Assembly: GCA_021904315.1 (NCBI GenBank)
Contig: CM038920.1
Coordinates: forward strand, 12,338,001 to 12,402,000
From: Sphagnum magellanicum
Taxonomy: Eukaryota > Streptophyta > Sphagnopsida > Sphagnales > Sphagnaceae
Reading direction: 5' to 3'
Length of the DNA stretch: 64,000 bases
Part shown: one piece after another, positions 2,538 to 43,800 of the stretch
Layout: every line of letters starts with the position of its first letter
Position numbering within the stretch: position 1 is the stretch's first letter
Position numbers and translations under genes: made by a program
The notes under the pieces: generated by a model
The model's database searches: none
What the model was told of the DNA's origin: nothing
Seen by the model: the letters and a program-made list of their open reading frames with translations, nothing else

Positions 2538-3784
2538 GGACCCTACAACATACTTTCTAATGCAAGATGACACTCCTTAGAACTTGATTTTACTTCATTG
2601 GGGGTTTTGGGGGGGGGGAGGGGTACGGGGGACATTTTGGATAGGTACTTTGGAATAAAGTTTAACATTCTTATGGTTGTAAAGAGAAAAGCAACTCTTC
2701 TTTTGCACTTGCGCTTGAGCGCGCGCACACACACACACAAAGTATTCCATGAGGGATGTCGGAATTGGCGCATGCACGGAGTCCCTACCACTATGGTGAG
2801 AAGAACCCGGAAATTATAAAGGACAAGAAGAATGAAGATCACACAACTTTACTAGTTCGGTTGCTTTCATTCAACACCACGCAAAAAACACAAAGAAACA
2901 ACAAAAGCCTTATTTATTGTCACTTGGAAGACCAAATCTCTTGAAGACCAAAAACCCCAAAAAACCCTAATTTAAGTAAACCCTAATATGTATCAAATTG
3001 ACCTTCAAATTGCTCTCCACCACAGGCTCAAGAAACAAAAAAGGATGCCCCTTTGCCTAAAGGGAGAAAATACCTTGGTCCCTCTTTTGGGTTTTTGTTG
3101 GCTCACCTCTTGAGGGAAGAAGAGACTTGGCATTGATGAATGACAATGAGTTTAGGGTTTTGAATTTTAGAAAATAGTGTCTTGAGCTTTTAAGCCAATG
3201 TGTGGGTGACGTCTCGAGACCTTGTTTTTGTTCGTGTCATCCATATTCGTTAGTTGGGATTTTATTTTTTTTGGGGTAATGAGCCTCTTTTGATTGGTCC
3301 ATCACAAAAAAGTTGTGAAACTTTGGAGATTTGGCCCCGCATTATAAAAATATTTATTCCAAACATAGAAACAAATTAGTCCCAATATTGGCCCACCTAT
3401 AGATAGAGGTTGTTGGAAGAGGACAATGTTGTGCAAAGCATATGGGACAAAGTGAGGTGCTATTTGGGAATATGTTGGGGAACACATTGGGAACTTGGGA
3501 ATTTTGTGGGAACACATCAAGAACGACAAAAAAAAAAAAAAAAACCAAAAAAATCTCTCCTACCCATCCCCTTAAAAGAAAAAACCAAACTTTTGAGTGC
3601 TTGCTCCAATCTTCATTAGTGGAGCATAATTTCCACTCCCAACTATATTCATCACCTATTTTGGCCTAGGCTAATGTTAAGGGCATAAATTGTGAGGACA
3701 TAATTTTTTTTTCTTGGGACAAATTTTAATAATGAAATTAATTCTTTTACCTAATCATTTTTCATGATTTTGTTCAAACTTGCC

Positions 3785-9372: not shown

Positions 9373-12300
9373 ATGGCGCCCTACGAAGCCGTGGTGGGAG
9401 GCCACCAGCACACCACTACCACCACCACCACCACCACCAGCGGAGATGGCTTCTTGTTCTCCACAGACATTTCTAACAATGTGATCGAGCTCAAGAACGT
9501 GATCTTGAACGAATTCCACGTTCTCCGCAAGTTCTTCCTCATCAGGTCTTCACGTTTTTCCTGCTTTCTTTCTTGGGTAGTAGGAAATTTTTTCCCAGGG
9601 TTTCTTTCTTTGGGTGCCCACCCCCTGAATTCTTCTGTCTTTGATGGGTTTTCTTTTTTCATGCCATTCATTAGTATGTATATGGGTCTACTACCCACCC
9701 ACATGTTGTTGCTCTTGTGAGTAGTACTACTACTCTCTTGGTGATCACAATATGACAATTGACATGTTGCAATTTTCTGTGTGGACCCACGGATCGACTG
9801 ACCAATCGATTGACCGACCAATTGACCAAGAGCAGTTTGTGCAATGAAGCTCTTTCCATTCAGCTCAACAGCGACCTCGGTTTGCAGATTGGATTCCAGC
9901 TCAACAATGAGAACCTCGACAATGAAATCGAGAACAGTAACACTGAGCCAACAGTTGCCACTTTTCTTGCAGATGACTTCAATCAGGTTTGTGCTGCTAT
10001 GATGATGATCTGAAGGCTTATGTTGTCAATGCATGTGTGCAACCTCAACATTCTTTGTGTTTCTGGATTCATCAGAAATCAAAGGAATATTTCTTGCTGT
10101 TGTGCTTGCTCATGTGGTAAGATAGATGCATGGCAGATTTTTTTGGTTTTTTTCCATGAACCCCAAAGATGTGTTTGTGATGCTATTCTTCTTCTTCTTC
10201 TTTGAGACATTTGTGTAGACAGTGATATTTCTGTATTGCATTCAATATTGCATCTCTGAATTAGGGTTTTCTGACGAACTACAACTTTCCTCGACCCAAA
10301 TAAAGTTTTTGTTTTGGCATTTTGCACAACTACCCTGCAGTTATTCAATACAGTGAATCTAGTGAGTGAGGTGGTTCTCCAACCTCGGCAAGTGCAGCAA
10401 GTGATCATCAGCTTCCGACCCAATGAAGTCTCAAATGATATGCCAAAGCCCGCAAGAGACTACAAGGAAAAAGATGACAGGTCTCCTACTCAGGTGGGGT
10501 TTAAATTTCTCCTCCTCCCACCACCAGGTCGTGAAGCAATTGGATATTGCTCTCTTGAGAGAGAAGAAGCTTCTTGGCCTTTGTAATTTTACGTTTTGTG
10601 GTACAATCTCAGACTGTTCTTTTTTTCAAGTGAATGATTGTTCTATTATCTATGGTTTTTGCAGCAGAGGCTTTTACATAATGGACATGTGGAGCCTTCG
10701 AAACGGGTGTACTCAAGTGCAAATCAGACATTCCATGTTCATGGAAAGCTATTTCTATCTGCAACAGTGCTCAGTGAGAATCGGCATGGCAGGGACCAGA
10801 AAGACCTAGGCAGCCAGCAGCAGCAGCATCAGGTTATTACTGTGGATTTCAACTCCACAGTATGTCGCTCCACCTTAAAGACAGATGTCTCTGAAATAGT
10901 TTTTGAGGACTGTGTGCCGGGAGGAGTTTTTGTCAAAGACTTCAGCATATGGAATATCTCAGAAATCCCCTGCACATTTCAGCTTTGTGTAAAGAATGTT
11001 GCTATGGAGCATCCGGTGCGTTCTAATTTTTTTTTTAAATTCCCCCTCTGACTTGAGTAGCTATATGATATGTCATTTCAGTGATTCTTGCTAGGCATTT
11101 AGCCAGATAAAAATATCTCCTTGTGACATTAAAGCAAGGAAAAGATTGCTCTTGAGTTTGTGGTTACATTTTTTCTCATATGTTGTTCCATTCGTGTTGT
11201 TGCTGGCAGATTTTAGCCCTCACAGACTATGATACAGGGCTACCTGTCTCAGATGGAGAAATAAAGAGCTGCGCACATCGACGAATCCGTGTAACATATA
11301 AGCCTAGAGATGTTGGAGATTTTTCTTACTTTGTACAACTTGACAATATGTTTGACAGCAGGAATTCCAAATCCATACCCATTCAGTGTCTTGTGAGTTC
11401 TTTACACTCATACCATGATATATCCTTGTGACATGTTTTGAGAAGAGTCTGAGGGTAGTAGTCTATGTAGGATGTGCCAAGTCATTCCACAGTTGAAAAT
11501 GGTTGATGCGGAGGTTGAACAAAATTGATAGATCCTGATTGCAGAGAGGGAAAAAAAGTTGTGGGTGAAGCTCCAAATTTTCATCTGTTCTGTGGGAGTA
11601 TGTATTTTCTAATTGAAGCAGTGTTCTTTTGTACAGGTGAACCCGGAGCAGCAGCAAGAAGGACTTCTGGTAACAGGTGTTGGAGAGGACGGTGTGCTGG
11701 ACTTTGGTGCTTGCTATTCTGGAAATGGAACATGTCAAATGCTGACACTTAGAAACATTACTCCTGAGGTATTATTGTGGCTTCTCTATGTATTGTGGGT
11801 TCTCAAATGTTTTTGGGAACTACAAAAGTTCTCTGCAGTTTCCTTTGAATGGGTTATCATCATTTTTATGTTGGAATCTTTGCAGGCTTTGGTGGTCAAT
11901 TTGGGCTCAGATTATGCTCCCGGTGATCAACTTGCTTTCTATCGACAGACAGACTTGGACCTTCTATCACCTGATTCCAAAGCTCGGTTAAAGGATGTTG
12001 TGAGCTATGATGAGGATGGTGTTTTGGATACAGATGAAGCTCGTGCAGCAACTGTACTTTTAGATAAGCTTGTGAGTGCAAGGTGTTTTGAACACCGTTA
12101 AAAAAGCCTTAAAGCATTCATCATGTCACTCATGGTTTTGCTGCTGTCTTTCTTGCATTGTGAGAGAGAGAGAGAGCTGCCCTTTTTCAGTGAAATATGA
12201 AGATAACTTTGGGTTGTTGCAGCAGGGGGGATTTCTTGGCTTAAAGTGATTTGTGTGTATGCAGGGTAACTCCGTCAGTCCCAGCGTCAGGCTCAACAAG

Positions 12301-15300
12301 AAGAGTAGAGTGGAAGTGATTTCTCTTGGAAGGGGTGAGGAAAAAAACCTTCTAGTCTGGCTCTACCCTGCAGGTGCAAGTGACGAATTAAAAGCCGCAC
12401 GATTGCAAAGGCGGAGTTTCCGGATCTCTCTCAAATGTGCAGAAAAGAAGGGCTATACTAAACAACGCTTCTCAAAGATCATCCAGGTAGGTATCTTGCA
12501 CTCAGCATCTTGTGCATGCATGGTTTCAAAACCATCTGCCAGATTTACTCTGCCCTTGTCAGATAATGTGTGGCTCCTCTGTTGGTACCAAATCACACTG
12601 GGGCATGATCTCTCCTCTTTCTAGATGTTCTTTGATGCATTGATTGACCCTTGGTATTGTGTTGTCTTTGGGAGTTATGATGCTGTTTGGAGCTTCAGTC
12701 CTGGATTCTGTTTTGATGACCCAAAATGTGCATATTCTCCCAAATTGTGCAGTGCAAGGCGCAGGTGTGCACATCAATTGTCAAACTTTCCAGCTTGGAG
12801 TTGAACTTCGGTGATTGCAACATTGGATCGGCAAAGTCATCCAGCGTGCAGATCCTGAACCGCTCAGATCTCCCAGCTCTTGTCAGCTCATATGTGACAT
12901 CAACGATCATCAGTCTAAAGAGCAATGCGGAACGAGTCTCGATACCTCCAGGAGAGACACATAGCCTTGACATTGATTTAGTGCCCTTGAAAACCAATCT
13001 CAAGTACCGGAAGCAAATTAGAGTGGACAACTTGTTTAATAAGGATAATAACCAAGTCTTGGAGGTTCGAGCCAAAATCATGGACCATCATCATGTTCTC
13101 TTCCATTCTTTGTTTTACAAGCTGAAGACACCATCCTCAAATAACTTCCTTGATTTTGATGGGTGACTTTCTGAGCCTCTGTTATGTTTTTTTTGCACTT
13201 GTTTGTGTGGAGTAGTGACTGGCTTTGTCTGTGCATTTTATGTCTTTGATTTTGTGTGGGTACTAGGCTTTTGTGACAAATGCTCATCACCTCCATTGTC
13301 TGTTCTTGTGGGTCAAGCACAACAGTTTTGTTGTCATGGTGGTTGAGATGTGGGTGGGTTGCTTTGGCAGTGTTGTTGTAAACAACCCAAGTGTAAAGCT
13401 ACTGTCAGTTGAGAACATCACAGACAAGAAGCTTACACTGGGATTCAACACCTCAATGCCTGAAGAGCTTGGCATCTATCAATTGAAAGATGAGTCACTT
13501 GAGGAAGATGGGATCCTGGAGTTCGGAGACACATGCAGTCTTGTTAGTGAAGGAAGTGAGGAAGACTATTATGACTATCGGAAGAGGTATTTCATAACAC
13601 CCACCTCAGGATTTTAGAGATATTATTTCAATTTGGTCATAGATCGCTCAGTTTGTTTTATTTCCAGCAATTATATTCTGGGGGGGGGAGTTGTTTATGT
13701 GTCAGAAATGTTGTTTCATATGTGTAGTAGTAGAAGCTTTGCTGTTTTACTAAATGAAGTCGTAAGTGCTGAGAGTAGTAGAGGCATGCCAAAACAGAGA
13801 GTGAGAGGGTGCATTGTATGCCTTTTTTTTGTTGTGGTGTGTATCAAGAGCTTACGCAGCATCGGTGAACAAGGAGAAAATTCTCGAAACTCTTGAGGAA
13901 TCACAGCCTCGACTGAGTAAAGCAATCGTGGACTCAGCTCCATTTCCTGTGCAACAGGGTCATGCGAAGACCATGCCTCCAAGACATCCATTTCCTGTGC
14001 AACAGGGTCATGCGAAGACCATGCCTCCAAGACATCCATTTTCAACATCTGATAAAAGGACAAGGATTAGGTGGGTGGTTGTAAAACTCTTCTGGGTTGC
14101 ACAATTCATGGTTTACTCCTTTGTCTCCATTTGTTCTGGAACATGTGGGAGTGGGTCATTTGTGGGAAGGAATGAGAAGGTCAGATTGGCATGTCAATGC
14201 AAAAACTCCGTGTTTCTTGCAGGGGCTTTGACAGGATGTCCCTTGATCTGGGAACCAGCCGACTGTCAAGTAATATGGCCAACAACGCATTGGAGGCAGG
14301 AGCTCCTGTTCCAGTTGCAATTCCAGGGCAGGCCAAGTCACAGGATGATTCTGCTGCCAACGTAAAGCCTTTTTCAAGCTCAGCCCCAGACCATTCTGGT
14401 GTCCGTTCCTTGAAAAGAGCCCAAAGCCATTTGATGCTGGGTGGTAGTGGCACTGAGGATGCACGAAAAAATGTCCGTTCTCCTCTCCATGAGGACTCCA
14501 GCCCGGAGGAATGCATTGCAAATGTCTTGAATCGACTTGGAAGCACATCTTTATCAAGTGTATCCCTTACTGATGATGATGCAGTGAAGAAGGTTGGTGT
14601 CTGTTCTAACTCTAACTCAAAAGCTCAGAGTGTTTTCTATGTGAAGTGCAATACTAGAGGGTATTTCTTGTAAGACTGACTTGTTGGTATTTGTGGGTCT
14701 CTCTCTGCTCAGTACATAGATGATCACATAAGAGATCGGGAGCTTACAGTGCATGCGTTGGAAGATGGTCCTCGAATTCTGTCCACTCTTGGGAGACTTG
14801 AGCTCCTTCCGGGTGAATCAAAAAACTTGTTTGTTGTGCTGGTTGTGGACGGTCAGTCACACTCCTCATTACAAGGACGTCTCCAACAGCTTGAAGCAAA
14901 GGTCTGCAACATCTCTGTTCATCTATCGAGGGATCTAGTCCAGCTTCACTGCTTAATTTTGTAGAGTCTTCAAGATTGGTGTAAAGGGCTGATGGGAAGA
15001 TGGCTAGTGTTCATTGATAGCAAAGAGAGACCCAATAGAGAGGAGAGTACAGTGGCAGAGATCCTTACATGAAAATCAAGTCTTTAGATGGGAAGTAGCC
15101 AATTCCAGGACAATCACATATGGGTGTGTGAGATGCTTGTTTGACAAGTCCACCTTTTCCATCAGGTCAATAGATCTGTCATTTGTGACTGTGTTTTGCA
15201 GGTGACTATTGAGTTGCTGGATTATGACACAGAGCGTCAAGAACATATGGAACCTGGATTCCTAGAGCATGCCATGGATGAGGACCTACTGACACGAGAG

Positions 15301-18300
15301 CTTCCTGTGCAAATCAAGGTAAGGGATCCCTTCTCCTAAACAATCATCCCCAGAGAAGTAAAGTATTGGAACTGACTACTGCAGTTTTTAGCGACAGTTT
15401 CTTTCTTATGTGTTCACTGAAGTGTACCTGATCGAAAAGTTCTTTGCCGATCTAAATTGGGTTTGGGATTGTGTTATCCAGGTTTGTCGGGCATTGTTAT
15501 CTCTAGCACAGAAGAATATCAGTTTTGGGAAGATGCTCACAAATGAGCACCGTGCAAAAACTCTGGTGTTGAATAACATTGCAGATGTCCCTCTGCTCTA
15601 CAAGATCAAGAAGACAGGTAAGAATGGCTAGCAATTACAGATGGGTTTTGAGTTCATTCTGGTTGTCAGGGTAGGATCTCTTGGTCATGTTGGAGAATAA
15701 CTGACATAGTGAGAAACTGCTGTGTCTTGAAGGGACCCTTTCCAGAATTAGAAAAGTGTAACAGAAGCGTGTGGGAAATTATTTCTGTTTGCATAAGAAA
15801 AAGTATGTGGATTTTTTTGCAGGGTCTATTGCGTCGGGTGATCTTCACATCATTGATGGGCGTACAGGTGTTCTCAAAGCTCACAGTAGCCAGGAGGTCA
15901 ATTTTGTGTTTCAGCCTTCGCTGAGTGGCACTTTTCAGGAAACTCTAACAGTGAGCAACGTATATGATCCGAGCAATGACCAGGTGGTCACCTTGAAAGC
16001 AACCATTAGCCGGGCAGAAACATTCTTGCTGAACACCTCAGACATCGACTTTGGGGCAATGATCTCAGGTCAATGGTCAACTCCACAAAGCGTCTTGATG
16101 TTAAACACAAGCAAGCAAACCCGAACATTCATGTTGAAGGAGTTGGATTTGGCTAGTGCTAAACAACAGTCACTGTTTGGAGAAGATTTTGTAGCCACAG
16201 AACTGCCTGCTCCAAAGCTGAGGTTTCTAGTGGAACCCAAGAAACTTCCATCGTTGGACCAGATCCCTCCTGAGCAAGAAGCTATTGAGGCATTGGAGAG
16301 GAAACTCTTGGCGTACAAGAGAAAGGGAAAGAAAGACAAGGTAGCAAAAGTGCAGAGGGAGATAGATGAATTAAGGAGTGCTAAGGAAAGTGCATCTGGA
16401 GTACCTGAGAAGGACGAGGAAAGACGATTGGGTGAGGTACAGGCACTAGATAATGGTGCCATGACTGCTAGTGACATTGAGCTGGATCATGTTGGTCCAT
16501 GGGGGAGCGGTGATCCAGTGCTTGGCAACGACAATAGCTTGTGCTCAAACTTGAAAGAATCAGAGGGTTTTACGAGTTTCATTTTGAAGGCTGGTGATTC
16601 CCAGGTATGGGGGTTTTGGGTCACTGTCAGTTCTATTTTCTGGAATTGTAGTTCACTGTGAACATGTGAGGGAATGTGTCACATGAGTGCAGAGTATATG
16701 TGAATGTCAGGACCCTCAACAGTGAATACCTGAAGCCATAAGATCCTTTGTTATGAAGACTGGATTTAGGGTTTAGAAGCTAGGAGCCATTTCTTCAGCT
16801 CCAGTTTGCTAGGTTATATATGCTAGTTCAGTTGATTGGTATCTTGTTATCTGACAATTGTTGTCATACCTGTTTTGTAACCAGGTTGTGCTTGTAAGTT
16901 GCTTTGCATCCCTTTCAGAAGCCACATCTCTCAGCAAGAATGTCCATGGGGCCTTTGTTGCATATGAGAGCAAAAATCAGGTACACATGTCTGCATAACC
17001 CTGTTTGTTGTTCTTAGAGTTCTGGAATCCCAAAAAAAGATGAGCCCAGTTTTCCATGCGTCTTTAAATATTGTTCATTTGTTGCTGTTCCAAAATGACT
17101 TAGCCTGAATCATTCTTGCTTTACTGTGACTTAAAACAGGATGTGGTGAAACAAATTGATTTCAAGGCTACAATCTGTTCTGCTTCTCCTGATGATGAAG
17201 GAAGTGTTTCAAGGTCACTAAAGCCGGTAAGGGGAGCATAGGAAAATTGTTCATGGGTTGGTGTGTTCTTGAACCATATTGTGTCTTCTTTTGCTGACTA
17301 GGATCTGAGACACTTTGTCACATTAGTCTATGTCCAAATGATCAGTTTTGTCTGCATCCGGTTTTTGTCCAATTGGGTTTTTCTTGCTTGAAAAAAGGGA
17401 TTTTCCTTGGTTGGTTCCAGTACAGGATAACAAATGTGACAAACTTGTACTAATGTCCTGCAGGTTCAAGTGGCCAGCTCTCCATACTCTTTGTCTGCTC
17501 CAACTCCTAGTCTGTCTCCAGACAGTTCTGCCCCAAACTCACCTTCAGGTGGCCAGACTCCTAAGTCTGGTGCTGGAGGACATCCATTACAGAAGACATC
17601 TTCATCAAATCTGTCGTCCTCTAATGATGGGTACGTGGTGGTTCTGAATGAGAACCTTGACACTCCACCTGGGCCTTCTCATACTCTGTCAACTGACTTG
17701 GGGCAGGCATTGGAAACTACAAGCACATGGGACTCTGGGCACCATGTCATGCATTGGCAGGATGATCTTCTTGGGCCTCTTGATGGGTGCTTTGATCCCT
17801 CAAGCATGGATGACAGTAGCAATGGTGCCAGCCAAGCTGAGAGTTTAGGCAGCCTTTCCACCCTGGAACCCCTTTTTGCCATTGAGTTGCTGCAACCTGC
17901 AACAGATAACATCCTGGACCCAGTGCTGACAGTGGCAGATGATGATATGGACTTGTCATCAGCAGCAGCATTGGCAAGGAGTTTATCACTACTACATCGC
18001 CTCGGAGGGCGACAGGATATCTGCATGCTGGACAAGGAAAAGTTTGCTGGAGAGGTGGTTCTTGAAGACTATCCAGATGGTGAAAAAATGGAGGCGTCCT
18101 TTCTGTTAAGGTCATTGTGTGCACATGACATATGGATACAATTTCAACTTCTGTGGGATAGGCAATTGCATGAACCTGAATTATGGGTTGGTGATTTTGA
18201 CTTCAAGGTGGTTGGCAATGGAAATGTCGGGTGGAGCTCCATGTTTGCCGAAGGGCTTTCTCGTTCAGGAGCTTTGATGGACACTGCTTCTTCTTCATTC

Positions 18301-21300
18301 CAACCAACAAAGCTTCTCTGGCAAAGGGTTGAGAGCAGGCATTTAGAAGCATCCGGAAGTATTCCCATGCTCGTGACATCAGCCTTCCTAAAAGGGACAA
18401 TGGCTAAGTGGGTGACATTACGTGTTGCAGACAATCCTCCTCCCATGGAGTCTTGGGATACATCTCAAATTGCATCAGCAGAAAATGGTGGCACTTGGGG
18501 GTGGGGGGAAGAAGCTGGTCACCTGTGTGGTGGGGTTGCTGGCAGCTGGCGTTCAGGAGTCCTGACATTGCAGTCACAGCCTGATGAGAGGACACAACGT
18601 CAGTTGCTTGTGTGCATGAAGCAACCAGAAAGAGTTCTAAAAGTTTCACCTTCAGAAGTTATCTTTCCTGAGTCTGAGCTTTCTTCTGTGTTGACTAGAG
18701 ACTTCTCAATCAAGAACCGAACTGGGCATGCAGTAGACTATTCGATCAAGGTATCTGGACCCACATTGCCAACTCAATCATCTTGTCGACCAAACAACAA
18801 ACTGCAGGAGGGCTCAACTTTAGTAGCGAATACTAGTGTTGTTACTTGGTCAGCTTTCACAAGAACCACACAAGCAAATTCACCCTTGGAATCCGTTGTA
18901 TCTGTAAGCCCCATGTCAGGGCTGCTCAAGCCTCATGAGTCTGCAATTGTGAGAATTCTTTGCAAACCAGTGAGACCCGGTAAGCAGGTGTACACCCTTC
19001 ATATAAAAAGTTCTCTGTGCCTCAGTGACAGTGAGATAAATATCACACTAGAGCCTTGCAGAGTTCATTTCCTGCAGCTACCAGATCTACAAGATGGCAA
19101 CTTGGATATGGGATTCTGCTTCATCAATGCTCCTGGCAACGAGAAGATAGTTCCCATTAAGCTGTATAACAACTCTACTGGGACCTTGTCCTTGTCATTC
19201 CGCTCTAACTTGACAAAACAGGTCCATATGTCATTGGATCCCAATGGATGGACTCGCACAGATGAAATGGAGTTGGCTCCCAGAGCATCCAGGACTGTCT
19301 TCCTGTGCTTGAGACCCAGTGGTGACAGTGCAGCTTACAGAAACGGACAATGCAGAGAAATAGTTGGTGGGATGAGAGTCACTGCCCTCTCTTCTGAACA
19401 TGCCAGAGCCATAATGGGAGGAAGCAAAGAGGGAATGACCGATCAGATCATGTTGAAGTTCAGAGCAATGGTTGGCCAGAGCTTGATGAAGGTATCAACC
19501 TCACAAATCAACCTTGGGCGTCTGAAAGAGATCGGTGGGTGCCTATCCGGGCATTTTGTTGTCTCTAACCCAAGTGCCCAAATGCCCCTAAGCTTTTCCT
19601 TGTCTTCTAGGCACGCCATGTTATCCTGCACAGAAGGCTATCTGGTCGGGAAAGAGGTTGCCAGGACATCAAATGACACTGCAACAGTATCAGAGATAGT
19701 GGTTGAGTTTCATTTACCAGTGAGAGACTATGGTCTTATTGAAGACACTGTGATAGTTAAGAACATGTCTTGCCCTGGACAGAATGCAGCAGTCATCATT
19801 CAAGTTTATGTAGATGGTGGCTTGGTTGAAGCGCAGGTTGAACCCGCACTTTCCCACTTTGAGTCGGCAGGGATGGAATTCTCAATGGGAGACATGGGTC
19901 ACAAAATTAGGAGAACACAAGGATGCATTCCAGGAATGCCTCCATCACTCTCAGGAGACTCTTCCAGGGATTCCACCCAAGTCCAAGAAAAGGAGACAGC
20001 CCAGTCCATGCAAGGGGCAGCTGCAATGGGTGCAAAGCAACACAATGAAGGTATCACCAATATGAGCTGGAACAGTTGCAGGCTTCTTGAGGACAATCCT
20101 TGTCTTGATCTCGGCACTGTGTTCACTATTCTGGGTACTGCTGACAGGAGTACTGCTAAGAAGGATTCCTCTCCAGACAAGGAATTGAAGGAATTTCCTG
20201 ATCTCATCATCTCTGATTTACGACCATACCATGCTTCCTTGTTGATCACAAACCACTCTGCTGAAGCAGTTACCTTGCAGCCTGTTAGTTCTCTGCCAGT
20301 GGTTGTAAATGTTGATGTGAAGTATGCCACAGAAGTTTCTCATGGAATTTCAGCTCACGTTCAGACTGGTGGACAATGTGGGAGATCCCTTATGACTAAT
20401 GGTTCTCGAGCATCTCAGTCAGATTGTGTGGACCTCTGCTGTACAATACTATCACAGGAGCACACTTGTGGATTGGAGGAGGCTGCACATGATCGAGTCC
20501 ATAATATGTGGGTTGCATGTGGGCATGCATTCACTCTTGCAAAAGGGGGCACAGCTCGTCTATTTGTTGCTTGTCGAGGACTGAACCCACTGTCTGCATC
20601 GGACTCTGATCAATTGCAAAAGGGGAGGCTTTGTGCATTTGAGGGATTACTGGCATTTTGTAAAACCACTGTAAGGACATATGAATTGGGAGGTTTGGAT
20701 GACAGTCCAAATTCTGGATGGCTTCATGCAAATGAGGATTGGCAAGGTTCACAAGTGGTGGAGATTGTGTCTGTAAGAGGTTCCATATGTTTGTCTTTCG
20801 GGGAGGTTGTCACGAAATTCATAAATCTTGGAAAAGTGGGAGATGCGAATGGGTGGGACGATGTCACTTTTGAATTTACCATAAAGAACCTTAGTGATGC
20901 AGTCTTGTTGTACAATTTTGTTGATGTTCCGGGAGTTTTCACTTTTGCATCAGAGAGGCTGCACGGAGCTTCTACTTCCCAAAAGCTATCAAACATTGTG
21001 GCACCCAGAAGTATGGTGACAATTCAGGCCCTCTTTCATGCATCAAAGCTTGAGCAGATGAAAGTGGCAAGAACCTGGTCATGGAAGGTTCAGTTGGTGA
21101 ACTGTAATAATCCGCTCAATTTAATGGAGCTGGCATTGGAAGCAGATATGACTGTTCGTAATCTTTGCTTTGGAGCTTTGACAGGATCTGTCTTGCTCTT
21201 GCCACCCATCACTGTCCCAGCACCATTGTTACCAGCACCTTGCACCAAGAACTTCATTGTAAGCTGGGGATTTTCCTTGTGCAACTAAATCAATGTTTGC

Positions 21301-24300
21301 TTATGTGGGTGGCAGTATTGTTTTCAATTCAGATATCTAGTCATGCTTGCTCTTGGTTCTCGATGTAGCCATCCTAATCTAGTAGTGCACTATTTTTTGT
21401 CGTCCAAAACAGGTTCAAAACTTGTCCCTGGAATCCCTCGGTGTGGCATTGGAGCTCCATCAAGTAGAGGATTCCGAGGCTCTGGTATGTGGGTTTTGTC
21501 TCTGGATCATAACTAGGAAATGGGTGAATATAATTTGTGCTGATTGTGAAATCTAGATTGCACAAATGAAGTTTCTTTCAACGATGCAGATGAGCTTTCG
21601 AGATGTATTGTTTCCTGTTGCTGCACTCAAGCATGGACTGCAGTTGATGGATGGTGTTGTTTTGTAAGAACTTCTGCTAAGGGTGTTCATAAACAGGTGG
21701 TTCTTGAGGTCACAACTCAAAAGCACGGGTCAGTACGTGAGCTAACTTTACAGCCAGGAGAGAAGGCAGAGTTGTGTGTGGGTGCACGCCTAATCTCTGA
21801 TTCCATTCCTCATGCTTTGAAGGGGAATGAGACTGAGAGGCCAAATGGCCACCTTACCAGTTTCTCGAGTGGCTCATTTCCAGAGACTGTTTTCAGACCC
21901 CTTCTAGGAACCCTGGAGGATGTAGCCAGTATGAAACAGCCATTGCATCATGAGAATCAACATGGTACCATTGCCACCAGCAGCTCAACACTGAGCACCA
22001 CATTGACCCCTTTGAGCAGTTTCCCCGATTCAGAACATCACTTGGAGATTGCAGGAACTGTGTGCTTAGGCCACCTATATTTGTACTCCTCTCCCCAGCC
22101 AGACTGTATCTCCATTCATGGAACACTGCTGGCAGGGCCAGTGTTTGATGTATCACCCCATACACTTCAACTGCAGGTGTGTGTCACAACATGAGATTTT
22201 GTCAAAGGTGTAGTAAAATGGCAGGGTTTTATGTTCTTAAGTCCCACCTTGAATGCCTACTTCTCTCAGGACAGATTGTGCTTTGAGGACTATGTATTGA
22301 GGAATATCATATAAATTCATTCATAGACATGCTGCTTTGCTTGACTGCTTGGTTTTCTTGGGCTGACATTCTCTGGCTCTTTATCAATGATTTCAGGCAA
22401 AGTTCATGGACACGGGAGCACCATCCATTAGTCTGAATTGGCCAGAAGCTGGGGTGGATTTTGTGTCTACCGATCCTTTTCCAAGAGTGGAAAAAGATTT
22501 CAAGGGCGGTCGCCTAGGAGCCTGGGAAAGCTGGCATGATAAGTCTGGAACTGTGCAGAAAATAGTGGTTCAAAACTTGTTGGCTTTTGATTCGCTTCAA
22601 TTCAAAGTGCAGGTAGAGGATGTGTTAACTGACGAGGTTGGAACTGTGTTCCATTCTCTTGAGGTCCAACCACAGGAAGCCAATGTGGCCCCAACAGAGA
22701 GTGTGGAGGTCGTAGTTAAACCACTACCATGGTCCACTGCAATGCATGATGCATTTCTCAAGCTATGTTCAGAGGGTTTGATGAACATTGAGTACCTATC
22801 AATTTTTGTCACACTCCGAGATATTGAGAAGCGTGATAGTGGTAAGAGGATCGAGATTCTTATCAAGCCACCCACTTTTCCTCAAAGGACTACCCAAAAA
22901 GAATTGAACTTGGAGACTCAAAAGCAAGTAGTTCTGGAGGAGAGTGCCAACAAGACCAACAATGGGGAGCATGTCAAAGGCCCACCTGTTCTTGGTCTTC
23001 GGGGCTGTACACCTGTGGGGGGGAGCACTTTAAGCTACAAGTTCGACTTGGGACAGCAGAATATTTCAGCAGGTGGCCATCTGCACTGGGATCTCACACT
23101 TGTTGGAGACAAGGAGTGGCCGATTTCTTATCGTTTGTGTACAATTAGTAGCAGCGATGCAAGCTGGCTAAGTATTAGCAGTTGTTTTGGGGTTGTGGAA
23201 GCTTTGCAGCTCAAGACTGTTAAGCTTTCATTCTCAACCAAAGCATTGGGTGAGCAGGTCTTCTCTTTGAAATCCCCTCTGCTTATTTGCATTGTGGCTC
23301 ATCTTCACTTTTTTTTACTTTTACTGTCAAGGCTGCACCTTGACCACCTTTGTGTGTTTTCTTCCTGAAAGTGTGAAGATCTTCCAACTGGCAGGTGTGT
23401 ACTCCACATACCTCATGGTTGAGAATCTTGAAAATCCAGGAGATTTGAAGACAGTGCATCTTAGTATGGAGGTTGTGGCTTCAAGGAACATCCGGCCAGA
23501 AGCTCCATCTCTCTCCCTCTTTCATGTGCTGGTGCAAGGAGACAAGTAAGGGTTTGAGCACTGAAGAAGTAATTTTACTGTTTTAGGAAGCTATCAAAAA
23601 TGCTACTTTTGGGATAGCCTTTTTCATAATTGCATGTGGTTTCACCTACGATTGAATGTTGCTCAAGTCCTCCAGCACCCCATTCTGTGTTGTCTGAATC
23701 TCTGGTTGTACAAGAATCATCTGGGTATAGTGCAGGTCTTTTTTAATTTAACACAGATCAGGATTTTGTCAGACCTTGGGCTCTTTCTAAGCACAAGTCA
23801 TTCTTCATGATCTTGAACTTTGCCACAGGAAAGCTCATCATATCTTCCATATGTTCTTCACTTGCCACTTCTTGGTTATGGTGTGCAGGACTGAGGAGGA
23901 AGTCATAGACATGGGTGAAGTCTACTACAATTTTTGGTATCGGAACCGTTCATTTGTAGTGGTGAATGAGGCTGCTGTAGCAATGGAGTTTCTTTTATCC
24001 TCGAGCTTGGACCACAATGACTCGACCGAGCTCAATTTCTCCTTAGCAAATTCATCTCTGAAGCGCTTCAGTTCAGTGACAGTAGATGCAAAGAGCAGGT
24101 TAGTTTGTTGGTTATTACTCACTGCTTCATGGGAGGCCATTTTTTTTCCCTATTTGACATAGGAGAAATGAGAGCATCTGAGGAGCTCATTGAACCCTTA
24201 AACTTAGTGAAGACAATGCATTCTTAGTTCTGGTGTCCAATTTCAGGTAACTAGATTGTTTGTTGCCTGCTTTGTGCCCCAGGCAAGCCTTGGATAGAGT

Positions 24301-26875
24301 AGAAGTTATTACTGCTTTTGGCTGCCAACTTACTTCTTGATCTGGAGTCTGTCTTTTGCTCAATGCAGTATACGGCTTTGGATCCACTTCTGCCCAGGTC
24401 GAGCAATGGAGAAGCATATCTCAGAAGACACGTGTGACGAGATTTCAGCCACCATTTTTGTGAATTGCCGACTTGTGAAGGTGTGGTTCTTGCAAACTCA
24501 TTTTAGGTTCAGTGGGTTGCCAATCCTTCTCAGTATGTAGTCAGCATCCTTCTTGGTTGCTTGTTCCAACAAACAAAAGGAATGAAGGTGAAAGAAACAT
24601 GTATGTTGCATTGCAACACCTCAAAGGGTTATAAAATGGTTTGTGCAGGACTATCAGAGATGTATACCTTTTCGAGCTAAGTGTCGGTATCCGCAGATTG
24701 GAATCTCTTCAACAGATCTAGTATTTTCTACACGACGGCAAGGAGTATTGCAAGGTCTTATGTCCATAGTTGAGGATGGGGACATTGGCTTAAGTGCAGG
24801 ACCTGTTAATGCTCCTTTCATCGAGAATGTCTTAGTACAGGAGTTGCTGCAAGTTCCTCACAACTTGGGCTTGGACATTCAGTCTGGAAAAATGGAAAGT
24901 AGTACAGGAGGGGTCGAGCTGGATATGATGCCATTGCAATCTAAAGCGGCAACAAAAGTTGTCAAAGATGAGGAGCTGGAACTGGTACCTCCCTTGCAGG
25001 CTCTTATTATAAAGAACTTGTACATACATCAGAAGCTGGAGTACATAGTGAAGAACGATTCCCTTTTTTTCCAAACCGATTGTCCTGAGCCACAAGTGAT
25101 CCCTGCAAGAAGTGCTGGTGAAGGAGGTGCAATAGACCTGGACAAGAATTTGACTCAATTAACTTCAGTGACCAGTCAAGCATTCCATTCCATTGTGGTG
25201 AGGCCTAACCCTGAGTCTTTACATCTCCATCGAAAAATGATACTGAAGCAGAAATACGTGGAAGAACACATGACTGTCTACAACCGCTTCAATCCACGTG
25301 AGAAATACACAGTCAGCTTACGCATAACAGCTGGTCATCTTCGCAACTTTTTTGCTGCACCAGGGTATGTCAGAGTACTGTCCCTACTATACGTCTTCAA
25401 CCAATGGGTTGGTGCAAAGACAGGTGTGGTGATGATAATATTGCACTGTGGCATAATTTAGGATATTGAGTGTTTTTTTGTTCCTATGCCTGTAGTGGGT
25501 GAGATGCAATGTTGTCTTAGATAACCAGAGGAAGCTTCTGACAATCTCAAATGCCAAGGTGCTGCATACAAGTGGATTTCTCTCTGAGATTCCACAAGTG
25601 GGATTCTTGATTTGAAAGTCAAACTGCTGCTTGCTCTGGCCTTTGAACCCTAAAGGGTACACCTTGGAGCAATGAACTGATACAGAAGTCTGTGTGTGGG
25701 TGTGGCTGTGTGACAGGCCCAAAAACTCATATCCCTTTGGGCGCCTTGAACTTGCCATCACATGGTTCATCAGCAGGTTTAACTCGCTTATGAGTGGGTT
25801 ACTAGAGGGGCTTCAACACAAATCATTGTCAAGACAGAGATCTGCCGCCCAGATGACAAACATTACAGGGGAGCTCAAAAGCAGCAACAATGGATTTAAT
25901 AAGATGGAATCACAGCCCTTACTGGGCCAGTCACTGAAGAAACAGCAGGAGTATTTGAACCAACACACTCAGGAAGCATTTGAGGAGCTTGAGGAGTGCC
26001 TGGGAGCTCTCTGTGCTGTGGAAGACCACTCACAGCGCTATGGCTCCCTCTTTTTCGACTTCCAGTATCTGACAGGTTCCAGTTACTCTGTGGTTTGCAT
26101 TGTCCAAGTGATGGGTCCACATCTAGAGCTGTTCAGCACAGACTAGTGAAGTTTGTGCACATACCCAACATCTGGCTACTTCAGATCTTGAAAACTGGTT
26201 TGTGGATCTGCAGATGAGCTTGTGTTCTACAGCTTGAAAGAGCGATGGAGCCGAGGTGGTGCCACGCTAGAGCTTGGCACAGTGCAACTTGCAAAGCTTC
26301 TTTACTGTGCTCTTTTTCGATGCCAGGTTCTTTTCTCAATATCTTTTGCATATCTTTCAGGTTATGGGACATCATCTAGTGTCAGAGGTTCATTCACTAG
26401 CTGTTGCTCACCAACATTTTGATATTGTATTAACATTGTAGAGTAAGGTCAACAGGTTTCTCCAATTGAAAACAACTAAGTAGGGATCTCACCGATTCTG
26501 GTTCGTTTTATGACACAGATCTTCCACCTTTGCTTGGATGGGTGCTCTTCATTCACCAAGCTGAAAGCATGCCAGTTTTTTAAGCCAGAAGATCTGGGGT
26601 TACAGTCTAGGCTCCACTTGAATACAGCAGATGGATTGAAAATCAGTGAAACAAAGGTTGACAAGCCGAGTGAGGGAAGACCAAAAGAGCTGGACTATAT
26701 TCCAAAACCTCCAAAATTTTGTTTGAAGTTTGTCGAAGATTGGACAGGCCAACTCCGACATTTTCTTTCATTTTTTCCCGATAGTCGCGATGATCTCCTG
26801 CCCCTTCGAGATTTGAACCAGAATCTTCAAGAAGTTATCATTTCTTGTAGAGCCACCTTAGAGAAGATACCATGA
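9373..26875 (+). CDS. Giant multi-ASH/PapD-like-domain protein, 29 exons, ~3,797 aa
   Basis: Exons placed by splice signals and frame: 9373-9545, 9836-9986, 10341-10493, 10665-11015, 11210-11392, 11637-11768, 11886-12071, 12265-12486, 12753-13162, 13371-13586, 13849-14070, 14223-14592, 14713-14901, 15202-15318, 15482-15617, 15823-16604, 16885-16980, 17140-17226, 17464-21258, 21413-21484, 21697-22176, 22397-23249, 23395-23545, 23889-24098, 24369-24480, 24649-25364, 25717-26075, 26214-26326, 26519-26875. They sum to 11,394 nt with all phases matching and one terminal TGA. The ATG has a good context (gccATGG); an in-frame ATG at 9328 is an alternative. No signal peptide or membrane helix is obvious. 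Repeated beta-sandwich signatures of the ASH/MSP/PapD type (an I/L-x-F/L-G start, then a strand ending in N-x-S/T) appear near residues 225-335 (EIVFEDCVPGGVF), 350-440 (VLDFGACYSGN), 525-640 (LELNFGDCNIG), 1037-1125 (NISFGKMLTNEHRAKTLVL), 1138 (DIDFGAMISG), 1784 (EVIFPESEL), 1910, 2068 (QINLGRLKEIG), 2184, 2501 and 3050. A charged helical segment sits near 1220-1260. ASH proteins (HYDIN, CFAP47, CFAP65, DLEC1, TMEM131) act mostly in cilia, centrosomes or secretion; I cannot place this one. The exon 1/2 junction is the weakest. Confidence 0.8.
9406..9440 (+). repeat. (ACC)n/(CAC)n microsatellite in the first coding exon
   Basis: A run of acc codons gives nine consecutive threonines at about residues 14-22 of the giant protein, preceded by HQH. 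Its length is probably variable between individuals and it leaves the frame intact in multiples of three. Confidence 0.85.
13940..14035 (+). repeat. Exact in-frame 48-bp tandem duplication in exon 11
   Basis: Two consecutive 48-base units (13940-13987 and 13988-14035) are identical by eye and encode the 16-residue segment PFPVQQGHAKTMPPRH twice, followed by a partial third start (ccatttt). It lies in a low-complexity linker between ASH-like segments of the giant protein, near residues 757-788. The identity means the duplication is recent. Confidence 0.9.
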
Positions 26876-29800
26876 GCTTTTGGAAAAAAAAAAAAATTTA
26901 AATAGGCAACAAAGTGTACACTAAAAACTGTAAAAGTAGCAGATTCTAAACCCTGCAAAAAAGAAAGGGGTTTCTTTACAGCTCAGTTCTCATGTATCTG
27001 CCCCCAAGGGGGGGGCTTCCATTCAATGGTTTGAGGAGCCAAGAGCTTAAAGATCAGCATCAAGGTTGCTGATGCAGGCATTGGCTACCCTGACATCTCA
27101 AAACGACACTGGCATTCAAAATCTTCCAATTTGCTGTTGTAATCTGCTTGAATTTAGTTTCAAGTAGAATCTGCAAATGGGTTTTATGCTCCATATCAGA
27201 TCAAGGTATTCACCAAACCCAATGTCCATTTGCAGTTTACAGTTGATTGCAATTTGTCCAAACTCAGTTTCATGCTATTGAAGGTTATACTTCATCTAAA
27301 GTATCGTGTACATGCCATTTTACTGCCGCCCGTGCAGGTGGACCTGCTCTAAAAGGCAGAAGTAAAGAGCAGTAAAATGGCCTGTATCTGTACATTCGAT
27401 GAAAAGTATGGTCAGAAAATACTCTGGAAATGGGTTTGGACTTTGGACCTTTAAATTTGTACATGATAAGAGTGCTCTACACAAGGCCTAGTAAATATAG
27501 TGGCCCATTTTTCATGTTTATGGGTAGGGCTAGGAATGCAATTCACACTCTTATGTTGAATGTGATAAATACTTGTAGAGGTCCCAATAGGCGGGTATGG
27601 GTGGAACGACTACTCTTAGGGTCTCCTTTGATTAGGTTGCTCTGGTCACAATTAAACAGGGGTGATCAGAGCTTAATGTTGGAAAGTTGCTAAAATGGAG
27701 CCACCTTCATTTTCTTGCAATGAAGCCACCTTCCTTTTCTTGCTGCATGGACAAAGTACTTTTCATTGGAGAGCTACAATTGGGCTGGTAAACATAACAT
27801 ATCTGCAAGTGTTTATTTAATTCACGTTACGAAAATTGGGAACATTTCATATGTAAGAAACTTTGTAAAGAATTTGGCAAAAAACATAAGATCTCGTAAA
27901 AGAAGTTGCCATGTGTCATCCTTTGATGATTCGAATTTTGTCTAACAAATCACACAGCTCTCTCTCTCTCCATTTGATCAATGCCTGGCCTTAACTACAG
28001 AGACTGTGAGGTGATTGTGAGTATAGCTAGATGAAACAAATGTAATGAAAAGTTGTTGTTTGGACGAAATACGAAGGTGACTGCAAGGACAACCAAAATG
28101 AAATAAATGTGACCGAAAGGTGCTATTTGGGCAGAGAATTTGTGATCAGAGTGGCCATATGGAATGAGATTCTTGATATGAAACCGTTTTCAGATTTAGT
28201 AGCTTGGTAATTGTCCTTACTATTCGTTTAGTGGTGTTTGGTGTTACCCCTCAAGATGAGTAATAAGGCATTGGGACAAGGTAAGCTACACTTAATTTCT
28301 AGTAGTTTATTTGGGTCAACTTGTAACATGGGTGTTTACTTCAAGCACAACTTTTGGCAACAAGATCTTTTTGATATTCTTTCTAGCACGACCCTTTAGC
28401 TTACTTAATATCAGTGTTTTTTTTTTTTTGGGCGAATTTTCGCAACCTGGTGACCAAGAAAAAAAAAAGGTCTGGCAAATCCAACAAAGGGATTTTTGAC
28501 TTTTATTTTATGCTTTCAAGTTGGTTTTCAACCCACATGGCCCATGTTTCAATTAGACATTTGTTTGCATTATTTTATATGGGAAGAACTTATAGGAAAT
28601 TTAATTCCAAACTAGTGTAATATTTTTACTCTATAGTTTTTTGTATGCAATTTTGAATATCAGCTAGGTGGTGATCTCCTCAAGATCACGTAAGCAAGAA
28701 GTATGGAATTATAGCCCATAATGGGACACCATATATACATATTGCAAAAGTCATGTGACTTCGAAATAGATAGCATATGTAAAACACGGAATCCTTGTGG
28801 GGAATTAGAGATTATGCATTTTAATCATGTGTGACGCAACTATCAACCCAAATCGTTGTTATTCAAGTTTTGGGCAAGGTCAACAAGGAAACTTACATGT
28901 ATAGTATGCACTTTTTAAAAATTGAAAACTCCGGTGACACCCTCAACCCTAATCCACCAGGGTATAGCTTACTCTCCTCACAAAGCATGAGGTGAAAGGG
29001 TCCAATTGGGATTTTAACTCTCAACCACCTAGCCTTACCCTTAGCCACTAGAGTAGTGGAATGTCCTCATGGTATGCATTTTGAACAATAAACAAACATA
29101 TGAGTTTTATCATATGGCATTATAGTGTTCTCCTCCATGCTTTGTGCAAACTACAACATTTTAACCTAGGTCATTTCTTCATTATAATTGTTTCATAAAT
29201 TATAACACATTTCACATCCATCCAACATTCATTCCTCATCAATTTCAACCATGGATATGTGAATGTGATTGTTCAATTTACTCATGACTTTAAAACTTAA
29301 ATGGGTGCAATGATTCATTGTGACTTTGTTTAATTATTGGTCACCATTCACGGAATACATTTTTTTCTCTTTCATGAAAAATTTATTTGAGATATTAAAT
29401 GAATTTAATAACATTGACTTTCAATTGGCATTGGCAAAAACATTTGATATTTTGTTTGGCAAGGGATGGTCATGGTGAGGGGTTTGTTCATCCTCCATCT
29501 TTGTGCCATACGTGCAAGTTGTTCACCATTCAACATGCGTTGACGAATTACAAAAAAAAACATAATGCATTACATGATCTCTCATAGGAAAAGGTGAACA
29601 ATTTTATTATTCTTTGTGGGATTGTTGCATGTTCATGTGATTTGGAAAGTGTTTCTTGTGTGTTGCCATTGCTTATCATATATAACCCTTTCTATAAATC
29701 TTTCTTTGTTTTGTGATGACATTTAACAATGTGAATTCCACTATTAGGCTACGTGTTTAGAGAGGCATTAGATTTGTGATCCTTGCATGATAGGGTGGTG

Positions 29801-40865: not shown

Positions 40866-43800
40866 ATGGAAGAACGGAGTAGGTCCTTCTCCTTCTCCTT
40901 GTTCTTGGTGCCAACTTTATTGGTGTTCTTCCTCCCTCTCTCTACTGCTACCGAGTATGATCACAAGGTAAACCATCTCTCCACTCTCGTCATCTTGATC
41001 ACATCTTGATCACGAAACCCTACGATATGTTGTCACTTGTTGTAAGGCCAACCGGCAGCATTTCCAGATCTAATAGCAGATCTTTGTCTTCAGGATTTCC
41101 CTGTGGAGTATTAGATGAGTTGGGTGTTGAATGCTCTTCTATTTAAGAGTTTGGATCTTCCTTGGCGTCCAGAATAGGTAGGCACTCTGCTTATTAGGGT
41201 TCTTGGTAATCTGACTGACTTTGGGTGGGGGAATTTTCTTCTCCTGAGAGCAGTATTCAGTGGGGGATACGGTAATGCTATGGGTAAATAAAGTTGGACC
41301 ATACAACAACCCTCAAGAAACATACAACTACTACAGCTTGCCATTTTGCAAACCTGGAAAAGGTGCAGCGGCAACTCATAAATGGGGAGGACTTGGTGAA
41401 GTTTTGGAAGGGAATGAGCTCATTGATAGTGAGATTGAAATTCAGTTCAAAGGTAAGATTTTACTCTCGTTCAACTCATGTTCATACTCCTATTCAACTC
41501 ACGAAACTGGTGAAACGAAGAAGAAAGTTCAGGCGTCCATTTTGATCCACACTTGTTGCTATGGCCAACTTCACACAGAATATTACTTTGCTTCGGACGA
41601 TTGAAAAAAAGCAGTTGGGTTATCAGTCCTGAAGATAGGCTCTTCTGCTTCAGCTTAGATTGTCCGATTTCAGTGGTGAAATGAAAACAGTTTTGTAGAC
41701 AGCCATTTGGTTATTGCTGTGCAATGGGCTCTCACATTTGATTTTTCTGCCCTCTGTTATTTTCTTGGCTTTCTGCAGTTCCAATGGAGAAGAAGACAAT
41801 CTGCAATCTTGAGCTCAATCATGAAACGGCAGATGCTTTTAAGGACGCTGTTGCAAATAGCTACTGGTTTGAATTCTTTGTAGGTAATGGCTCTGCAATC
41901 TGAGACAGATTGAAACACCATATTGCTTTTTGTTAGCCATGGGTAACACCTGGACTTCCAGTCCATAGTGCTTCTCTTCAAAAGTTTCTGATCTATACAT
42001 CTTAAGGAGTTCATGGTAAGAGAGATTGCATTGATCCAAGTGATCTGTTCATAGAGCGCAGTTGTGCAGTAGTAGAAAGGGACATCTGGTTGCTCTTCCT
42101 TGTATTCAGAATTTCCCTTTTGAAACAGTTGTGATCTGTAACCGCTTCCTGGATCTCCTATTATAGAAGCCTGTTTATAAGCCTATAGAAGTAGATTTTG
42201 ATTTCCACTTCCTCATGTGCAATTGTCTGATTATAGCTGGTTTGGTTTTCTCTGTGGGGACATATTGAATACTTGGCATGGAGTTTCAGATGATCTGCCA
42301 CTGTGGGGTATGTGTATCTTCAACAAAGACCCTAGACTGAATTTTAGAGTTTGTCTTTGATCTGAATTTTTATTTTTTTCCCATGCTTGAATTTTGTATG
42401 CATCTTTGTAAACATGTATGTTGTTTCTCACCTTGTGCATTTCCCCCAGCATGATTGTTGACAACAGGTTTGGTAAATGAGCTAGAATATTAGACTGGAC
42501 TAATACTTTATGAAAATGTGTATGATTCCAGGGTTTGTGGGAGAGTATCATCCAGAGAAGAATGACGAGGACTCAAAGTATGTAATGAGCACACACAAGC
42601 AATTTGTGATCAAGTACAACAGTGACCAGGTAATTTACACCTCTGTTTGCAAGCACAACAAGCGCCTGAGTAGCTTGTGTTTGTTCTCCTGTTTTTACCT
42701 TATGGAAAAATGCTATCTGGTGCATCAATTTGATTGGTTGTGGGTGCACAACTTACCATCTGATCAGGATTTTGGAATTGATTAATTGTAGGTCATTGAC
42801 CATCAAGGCCAAGTACTCAAGGAATTAGTGAAGTGTTACATTTACTGTGTTCTTTTTCACTTCAGATTATTCAAGTCAACTTGACACAAGAAAATCTTCA
42901 GCCCATCAAAGTGGGGAAATCTTTGGAGCTTACATATGCTGTTGAGTGGGTTGAGACCAATATCACTTTTGCCAGGCGCTTTGATGCCTACTTGGACTAT
43001 CCATTCTTTGAGCATCAGGTCAACCCATCTGTCTCATGCCTTAATCCAGAAACCCTAAAAGATGGACCCTTAATCCGAAGCCTGACATATGCATATCAGG
43101 TCACACATATGTTTGTTTGTTTTCATGAATTAGTTCATGGCTGCAAATGAGGATTTGTTTGTTGCACTCAGAGGTTTGTGCAAAGATCCATGTCTTCTGA
43201 TGTTGATCCACATGCTGGCTACGCAGATCCACTGGTTCTCAATATTCAACTCATTTATGATGGTCATATTCCTCACTGGGCTTGTATCAATGATTCTCAT
43301 GCGGACTCTTCGCAATGACTATGCCAAGTATGCTCGTGAGGAAGATGACTTGGAAACTTTGGTAAGCAAAACTATTCTCAATCACGATCTCTGAGGTTTA
43401 GAGTTTAGGGTTCAGGTCATGATCTGCTATATCTTATGCATACAGTCTTATGAAATGTGATCTTGCTGTTTGTTGCATTCTCTATATACCTATCCATGTG
43501 AAAAGAACTGAAGGAATGAAATCCATTTGCCATTCCTGGGATTCCTACAAGCCTTTTTTGCTGGGAAGCTTTTTGGTTAGGGTTAGGGTGGATGTATATT
43601 TGTCAAAGTTTTTAAGGTCGATAGCTGCATGTTAATGGAGGGAGTTGAGAGTTCAAGGTCTACAAGCAATAGCAGTGAATCAAATTAAGACACAGAGTCA
43701 TGGTTCAACAAACTGACAAGCATTGGTGTTGCTGTAACATCTGCAGGAGAGGGATGTAAGTGAAGAGTCAGGATGGAAGCTGGTTCATGGAGATGTGTTC

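Follow-up and report, generated by a model that had tools for sequence, protein, structure and literature searches.

What protein is coded at positions 9373..26875 of the forward strand in a 64,000-nucleotide stretch of the Sphagnum magellanicum genome (contig CM038920.1, positions 12,338,001 to 12,402,000; the whole stretch is called the window below), and what could it do? The locus almost certainly codes for a single predicted protein, built largely of tandem ASH domains and coded by a single gene. Taken as a whole, its best explanation, put forward tentatively, is a giant cytosolic docking scaffold that acts away from the flagellar axoneme, with a microtubule-organising centre as its possible site.

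Gene model and bryophyte relatives

The model rebuilt from the sequence has one predicted coding frame of 11,394 nt, distributed over 29 exons, for a protein of 3,797 amino acids (aa). Its 28 introns are all GT-AG and the only stop codon, TGA, closes the frame. The splice-aware dynamic program used for the rebuilding gave 30 rows, one of which is a zero-length artefact, and took the later acceptor 9872 for exon 2. Adoption of acceptor 9836 yields the exact 11,394-nt model, and with it the exon 2 junction is ungapped, 15 of 21 residues being identical to each of three bryophyte relatives. The frame exceeds what chance would give: exon 19 is by itself open over 3,795 nt, and every exon is conserved in the bryophyte relatives. 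The coding features, all on the forward strand, are the following:

9373..26875 (+): gene of the tandem-ASH protein, 3,797 aa; ATG at 9373, TGA ending at 26875
9373..9545 (+): exon 1 (aa 1-58)
9836..9986 (+): exon 2 (aa 58-108)
10341..10493 (+): exon 3
10665..11015 (+): exon 4
11210..11392 (+): exon 5
11637..11768 (+): exon 6
11886..12071 (+): exon 7
12265..12486 (+): exon 8
12753..13162 (+): exon 9
13371..13586 (+): exon 10
13849..14070 (+): exon 11, carrying a perfect 48-bp in-frame tandem duplication
14223..14592 (+): exon 12
14713..14901 (+): exon 13
15202..15318 (+): exon 14
15482..15617 (+): exon 15
15823..16604 (+): exon 16
16885..16980 (+): exon 17
17140..17226 (+): exon 18
17464..21258 (+): exon 19 (3,795 nt, aa 1393-2657)
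21413..21484 (+): exon 20
21697..22176 (+): exon 21
22397..23249 (+): exon 22
23395..23545 (+): exon 23
23889..24098 (+): exon 24
24369..24480 (+): exon 25
24649..25364 (+): exon 26
25717..26075 (+): exon 27
26214..26326 (+): exon 28
26519..26875 (+): exon 29

The proteins of Physcomitrium (3,681 aa), Ceratodon (3,707 aa) and Marchantia (3,727 aa), each annotated as a single protein, give one continuous alignment each that spans 99-100% of the window protein, with 50-51% identity overall and 31-91% identity per exon for all 29 exons. The alignment is ungapped within 10 residues or fewer on each side of 26 (Physcomitrium), 27 (Ceratodon) and 25 (Marchantia) of the 28 exon junctions. Conservation is poor around a few junctions, such as the third, with 2-6 of 21 residues identical. 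A fusion of two or more genes in the model, a concern since the 29 exons were predicted from genomic DNA alone, is extremely improbable because these single bryophyte proteins align end to end through all exons; a two-gene model was rejected on that ground. The preliminary description of the window had proposed 29 exons joined in one 11,394-nt frame without phase error, which was reproduced to the base, and one giant gene, which the full-length single relatives in three bryophytes support.

Exon 11 displays a particularity at 13939-14041, where the 48-bp duplication codes for the same 16 residues twice (PFPVQQGHAKTMPPRH). The Physcomitrium, Ceratodon and Marchantia proteins carry one copy of this motif. 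The duplication is either recent or an assembly artefact.

Domain architecture and known ASH proteins

Profile-profile comparison identifies ten ASH/PapD-like segments in the window protein at 80% or more, with controls at 0-2%. Two predicted structures support the ASH fold and suggest up to three further sandwiches and a C-terminal helical domain. Pfam scores are above cut-off for ASH (44.1 bits, cut-off 27), HYDIN/VesB/CFA65 (62.1, cut-off 25.5), CFAP65_4th (62.5, cut-off 27) and MSP (29.2, cut-off 25.9). Among seven family members scanned at E <= 0.01, the ASH profile is matched in all seven and the MSP profile in two. These matches above cut-off and the predicted Ig-like beta-sandwich place the protein in the ASH/MSP/PapD-like superfamily. 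The predicted organization is thus ASH-type for much of the chain, followed by a C-terminal helical domain. The segments are listed below with the evidence for each:

10851..11648 (+): ASH segment aa 222-341 (spliced); profile 99%, Pfam Cep192_D7 at aa 268-324
11640..12405 (+): ASH segment aa 339-490 (spliced); profile 85%
12765..13109 (+): ASH segment aa 522-636; profile 98%, Pfam ASH and CFAP74_4th
15289..16016 (+): ASH segment aa 1016-1135 (spliced); profile 98%, strongest Pfam matches CFAP65_4th, HYDIN/VesB/CFA65 and Cep192_D4
16269..16391 (+): charged stretch aa 1220-1260 (EQEAIEALERK...DKVAKV), 3' of the 1016-1135 segment; conservation and consensus
17605..18597 (+): aa 1440-1770, without ASH signal, not conserved in the 16 non-plant members compared
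18610..19077 (+): ASH/MSP segment aa 1775-1930; profile 97%, Pfam, predicted structure
19099..19407 (+): predicted beta-sandwich aa 1938-2040; structure prediction, weak profile (37% or less)
19450..19839 (+): ASH segment aa 2055-2184; profile 98%, predicted structure
20101..20664 (+): tentative interrupted beta-sandwich aa 2272-2459; strands only, partly at low confidence, profile 0-3%
20755..21189 (+): ASH segment aa 2490-2634; profile 98%, predicted structure
22472..22903 (+): ASH segment aa 2867-3010; profile 80%
22985..23540 (+): ASH segment aa 3038-3174 (spliced); profile 96%, predicted structure
23499..24711 (+): ASH segment aa 3161-3304 (spliced); profile 87%, predicted structure
24895..25362 (+): predicted beta-sandwich aa 3366-3521
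25363..26872 (+): predicted C-terminal helical domain aa 3522-3797 (spliced); structure prediction of the homologue P0058, helices 468-630

Relative to the 16 non-plant members, conservation is highest around aa 221-320, 1061-1120 and 3121-3290, while the helical end is conserved in patches only. The charged conserved stretch at aa 1220-1260 is probably helical. Region 1440-1770, which is not conserved outside bryophytes, sits inside the largest exon, exon 19; searched alone against PDB with phmmer, this exon gave one chance match only. The highest 19-residue hydropathy is 1.64, revealing no clear membrane span in a hydropathy window, no dedicated predictor having been run.

No full-length match to HYDIN, CFAP65, FAP74, FAP81, CEP192 or TMEM131 was found in Pfam and PDB sequence searches. 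HYDIN is likewise a giant ASH array, and its PDB profile match reaches E 2.4e-19 from 12 weak domain matches, but these are scattered in 7n6g_1J, not colinear, and the best domain scores 16.3 bits; the predicted C-terminal helical domain is a further difference. CFAP65, CFAP74 and CFAP81 (FAP81) resemble the window protein in single Ig-like domains (CFAP65_4th, CFAP74_4th). Only isolated domains match, however, and their solved chains have 1,847-2,257 residues. The 4th Ig-like domain of CFAP65 is found in 7/7 members and the 7th and 8th in 3/7 each, without a complete ordered set; the 7th-domain match overlaps the 4th-domain position in the Physcomitrium protein P0001 and in the window protein. 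Identity with HYDIN, CFAP65, FAP74, FAP81 or TMEM131 was rejected, there being no match along the length and no clear membrane span.

The resemblance to CEP192/SPD-2 consists of an ASH4-like segment (aa 1016-1135) and of the fold of a two-ASH pair, and extends to a possible scaffold mode of action. It could suggest that the family is an unrecognised CEP192/SPD-2 of plants, fungi and amoebae. This is improbable. The SPD-2 domain is composed of ASH4 plus ASH5, as stated in the available part of PMC11922060, and this domain pair was not found by sequence; the pair that superposes on the CEP192 two-ASH structure is not the one that includes the ASH4-like segment. Cep192 domain models are matched in the seven scanned members for D4 (7/7), D6 (6/7), D2 (5/7) and D3 (3/7), whereas D5 is listed for none of them (E <= 0.01), and no CEP192 chain appears among PDB sequence matches up to E = 1. 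ASH domains lie along the whole window protein, unlike in CEP192/SPD-2, whose N-terminal half is described as largely unstructured (PMC11922060, in part). In a land-plant survey table (PMC5371999), Spd2/CEP192 is marked in the first two columns alone, which are taken here to be human and fly. Note that Dictyostelium has a Cep192 that has been studied (PMC8467581, PMC8534566, PMC5946109, each in part); the antigen used for it (cepH) corresponds to residues 1262-1601 (PMC5946109), and it may be the orthologue of the 3,370-aa Dictyostelium purpureum family member, P0051.

A second set of likenesses points to membrane traffic. Structure matches, in lists that concern mainly the ASH part and not every family, include the OCRL ASH domain bound to Rab8a, VAP MSP domains and a TRAPPII chain, the latter in line with the ASH/MSP fold of TRAPPC8/9/10. 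The Pfam fourth domain of TMEM131L is listed in 5/7 members, the TMEM131 N-terminal domain in 4/7 and the OCRL-like ASH in 2/7. A tether resembling the TRAPP ASH subunits, OCRL and TMEM131, which would bind Rab or coat factors on Golgi and endosomes independently of flagella, would also be compatible with occurrence in aflagellate organisms. It is considered somewhat unlikely. The window protein differs from TRAPPC8/9/10, OCRL, TMEM131 and VAP by having no catalytic or clear membrane part: the transmembrane helix typical of TMEM131 is not apparent, no TRAPP, RhoGAP or phosphatase domain is in the Pfam listing, and the window protein and P0001 reach only sub-threshold scores for the TMEM131-type profiles. 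TRAPPII/III subunits combine an N-terminal alpha-solenoid with a C-terminal ASH (PMC4094338, in part), a layout distinct from that of the window protein, where ASH domains start at aa 222 and the C-terminus is helical, the first 220 residues being unmodelled.

The preliminary description had counted at least ten ASH/MSP-type segments, as does the profile-profile comparison, and had recognised none of HYDIN, CFAP65, CEP192 or TMEM131, in agreement with the absence of matches along their length; structure prediction, which it had proposed as a check, supports the Ig-like/ASH fold in both predictions. Its term "unassigned family" holds for function. The family itself is already in databases as uncharacterised proteins, P0001 being annotated "MSP domain-containing protein". 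Apparently it is an ancient, uncharacterised new family within the known ASH superfamily. The uncharacterised bryophyte proteins P0001, Ceratodon KC19_4G178800 and Marchantia MPTK1_1g02700 share length and order with the window protein, which differs as a deep sister of the Physcomitrium/Ceratodon copies and by its exon 11 duplication.

Family members and the loss of the flagellum

The family set comprises 56 rows from three protein searches. The proteins covered were 647-2,058 aa long or had at least about 2,025 aa; in two of the searches, scoring was limited to the candidates with the largest number of shared words, 2,144 in one and 2,147 in the other. Three proteins were dropped: P0033 (E 3e-7) and P0056 (E 8e-13), generic ASH proteins with HYDIN-like long domain lists, and P0034 (E 4e-5), a bacterial-looking repeat protein among the generic ASH set. 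An organism name is carried by 47 rows, corresponding to 44 species; eight are unnamed and one is labelled Opistho-2. The named rows are from bryophytes (7), zoosporic fungi (15: chytrids, Blastocladiomycota, Neocallimastix), non-zoosporic fungi (17: Mucor, Phycomyces, Phascolomyces, Umbelopsis, Jimgerdemannia, Mortierellaceae, Glomeromycotina, Calcarisporiella, Basidiobolus), aflagellate protists (3: Dictyostelium purpureum, Balamuthia, Capsaspora), oomycetes (4) and the haptophyte Prymnesium (1). Mortierellomycota, Calcarisporiella and Basidiobolus count here as non-zoosporic, and Dictyostelium, Balamuthia and Capsaspora as aflagellate. The lifestyle of the other fungi follows the available part of PMC8371127.

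The 49 non-bryophyte rows show 26-33% identity in high-scoring segment pairs that cover 17-65% of the window protein, mostly from end to end. Segment order is colinear in 42/56 rows and disturbed in 14, as can happen with repeats. Family length is mostly 3,000-3,800 residues, and several rows of about 2,500-2,700 aa that end early may be partial gene models. These features argue that the rows form, in all probability, one ancient eukaryotic family. No vascular plant, animal, green alga or Dikarya, and in particular no fern, lycophyte or Chlamydomonas, is among the named rows of these three size- and word-limited searches, whose proteome reach was uncontrolled; absence from vascular plants, hornworts, animals and Dikarya is a lead rather than a fact.

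A first tree was built from 28 of the 56 rows and the window protein (quick IQ-TREE, SH-aLRT support only); Prymnesium, Capsaspora and the amoebae were flagged for long branches. It recovers oomycetes, Amoebozoa, bryophytes, and Capsaspora with fungi, suggesting that the family broadly follows species. The Physcomitrium and Ceratodon copies together form the sister group of the window protein (support 100), and the liverwort copies fall outside these three. This placement points to a probable moss of a deep lineage and is consistent with the seed-free plant on which the preliminary description had conditioned its functional proposal. Physcomitrium has two copies, P0001 and P0003, paired after the split from Ceratodon (support 96). 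Non-zoosporic fungi are monophyletic, both for all 14 in a second tree (support 100) and for all 17 when every row is used. This single clade matches the single flagellum loss proposed for these groups in PMC8371127 (in part).

Path length from the fungal ancestor is 1.356 (standard deviation 0.214) for the 15 zoosporic rows and 1.402 (0.189) for the 17 non-zoosporic ones, with a Mann-Whitney p = 0.52, the rows not being independent. The 14 + 14 subset gives 1.336 and 1.332, respectively, and hand sums from the second tree, about 1.27 and 1.30, display no clear difference either. Such similar paths reveal no clear relaxation after flagellum loss. A protein used only in the axoneme would be expected to be lost or to change faster, and the similar rates thus speak against an axoneme-only role.

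This bears directly on a flagellar function, for instance in the sperm central apparatus as for HYDIN or CFAP65. The top PDB sequence matches are axonemal (HYDIN, FAP74, CFAP65, FAP81), the best Foldseek matches are the central-apparatus chains 9ijj, 7sqc and 7som, and flagella occur in bryophytes, zoosporic fungi, oomycetes and Prymnesium. The structure matches are not decisive because any ASH array would match such chains. HYDIN and other axonemal ASH proteins are not known from organisms that have no motile flagellum, whereas 20 of the 47 named rows (18 species) of this family are from aflagellate organisms. The absence of a HYDIN-colinear match and, within the limits of the searches, of rows from the swimming ferns, lycophytes and Chlamydomonas also counts against it. 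A flagellar part is very improbable, and restriction to flagellates was rejected given the aflagellate members and the similar fungal rates. It is highly likely that the protein has no axoneme-only role. Of the two readings offered in the preliminary description, the sperm locomotory role does not fit these data and a general scaffold is the better one.

The protein could alternatively belong to the basal body or centriole of flagellates and have been re-used for another purpose at each flagellum loss. Its presence in zoosporic taxa and in Basidiobolus, which keeps a centriole-like nucleus-associated organelle, would agree with this. Both centrosomes and cilia have known ASH proteins (PMC4094338, in part). 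Separate takeovers would nevertheless be needed in fungi, Amoebozoa and Filasterea, the fungal rates show no clear change, and Balamuthia and Capsaspora are not known to have centrioles. Dictyostelium is also described without them in the available part of PMC8467581. This alternative is quite unlikely.

Candidate function and other features of the window

The reading developed here is that of a docking scaffold. A scaffold with multiple partners is likely: each ASH sandwich would provide a binding surface, so that many partners could be strung together, and the conserved stretches around aa 221-320, 1061-1120 and 3121-3290 would be the likeliest contact sites. The protein would be cytosolic, being without a clear membrane span. 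Its place is the least certain part: a microtubule-organising centre, either nucleus-associated or at a spindle pole, is a possibility suggested by analogy with CEP192/SPD-2, ASPM and the TRAPP ASH domains. In cells free of cilia, the known ASH proteins are found either at centrosomes and spindle poles, as with CEP192 and ASPM, or in Golgi and endosome traffic complexes, as with TRAPP and OCRL. The ASH domains of TRAPP subunits are described as centrosome-targeting in PMC4094338, and bryophytes are described as having centrosome-like or nuclear-surface microtubule arrays in PMC5371999 (each in part). Because of these known ASH sites in cilia-free cells and of the bryophyte arrays, the microtubule-organising centre is preferred to a membrane tether. 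Capsaspora is reported without SPD-2/CEP192 in the available part of PMC7098662, yet it has a family member.

Several observations weigh against this reading, beginning with the axonemal PDB and Foldseek matches described above. CDK5RAP2, Plk1 and pericentrin are largely unidentified in plants according to PMC5371999 (in part), so that a centrosome scaffold of the classical kind would be missing its partners in them. Within the limited searches, no family member turned up in animals or Dikarya, which have microtubule centres, and a search of open-access PMC papers for five locus tags of four family members gave no paper. In addition, P0049 of Synchytrium microbalum is a family protein annotated with nucleoside-diphosphate-kinase and PF05186 domains, which we take to be an NME5/RSP23-like pair; they reflect either a gene model merged with a flagellar neighbour or a genuine fusion.

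A broader form of the proposal, which is unlikely, is that the protein was a founding scaffold of the eukaryotic microtubule-organising centre, inherited from early eukaryotes and lost in vascular plants, animals and Dikarya. It would then organise acentriolar centres, namely the polar organisers of liverworts, the nuclear-surface array of mosses, the spindle poles of zygomycetes and the nucleus-associated body of Dictyostelium.

That mosses, liverworts, early-branching fungi, oomycetes and amoebae share a protein of some 3,500 residues shows that the inventory of ancient cell components is incomplete. No function for the family was found in the literature searched, and the standard model plants, animals and yeasts contribute no row. 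A giant ASH array does not necessarily imply a cilium. If the protein were a scaffold of microtubule centres, it would provide a handle on the liverwort polar organisers, whose required genes are given as unknown in PMC5371999 (in part). Its function is open to direct testing in Marchantia, Physcomitrium and Dictyostelium.

Rfam and tRNA scans of the window found nothing. About 400 nt after the stop codon, an imperfect hairpin at 27281-27410 has 18-nt arms that are 94% complementary and a folding z-score of -6.2; it gave no Rfam match and resembles either the precursor of a microRNA or a small foldback element. Pieces of a TM9SF/EMP70 gene lie at 42800-45750 (+), with an EMP70 Pfam match (E 5e-27) at 45189-45743 and an upstream extent set by eye from open reading frames. 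At 59563-61196 (+), a PPR protein with E, E+ and DYW domains is spread over several reading frames, and the gene is possibly decayed. Two four-copy tandem arrays occupy 1469-1893 and 2129-2539, with units of about 108 and 104 bp and 92% and 91% matches, respectively.
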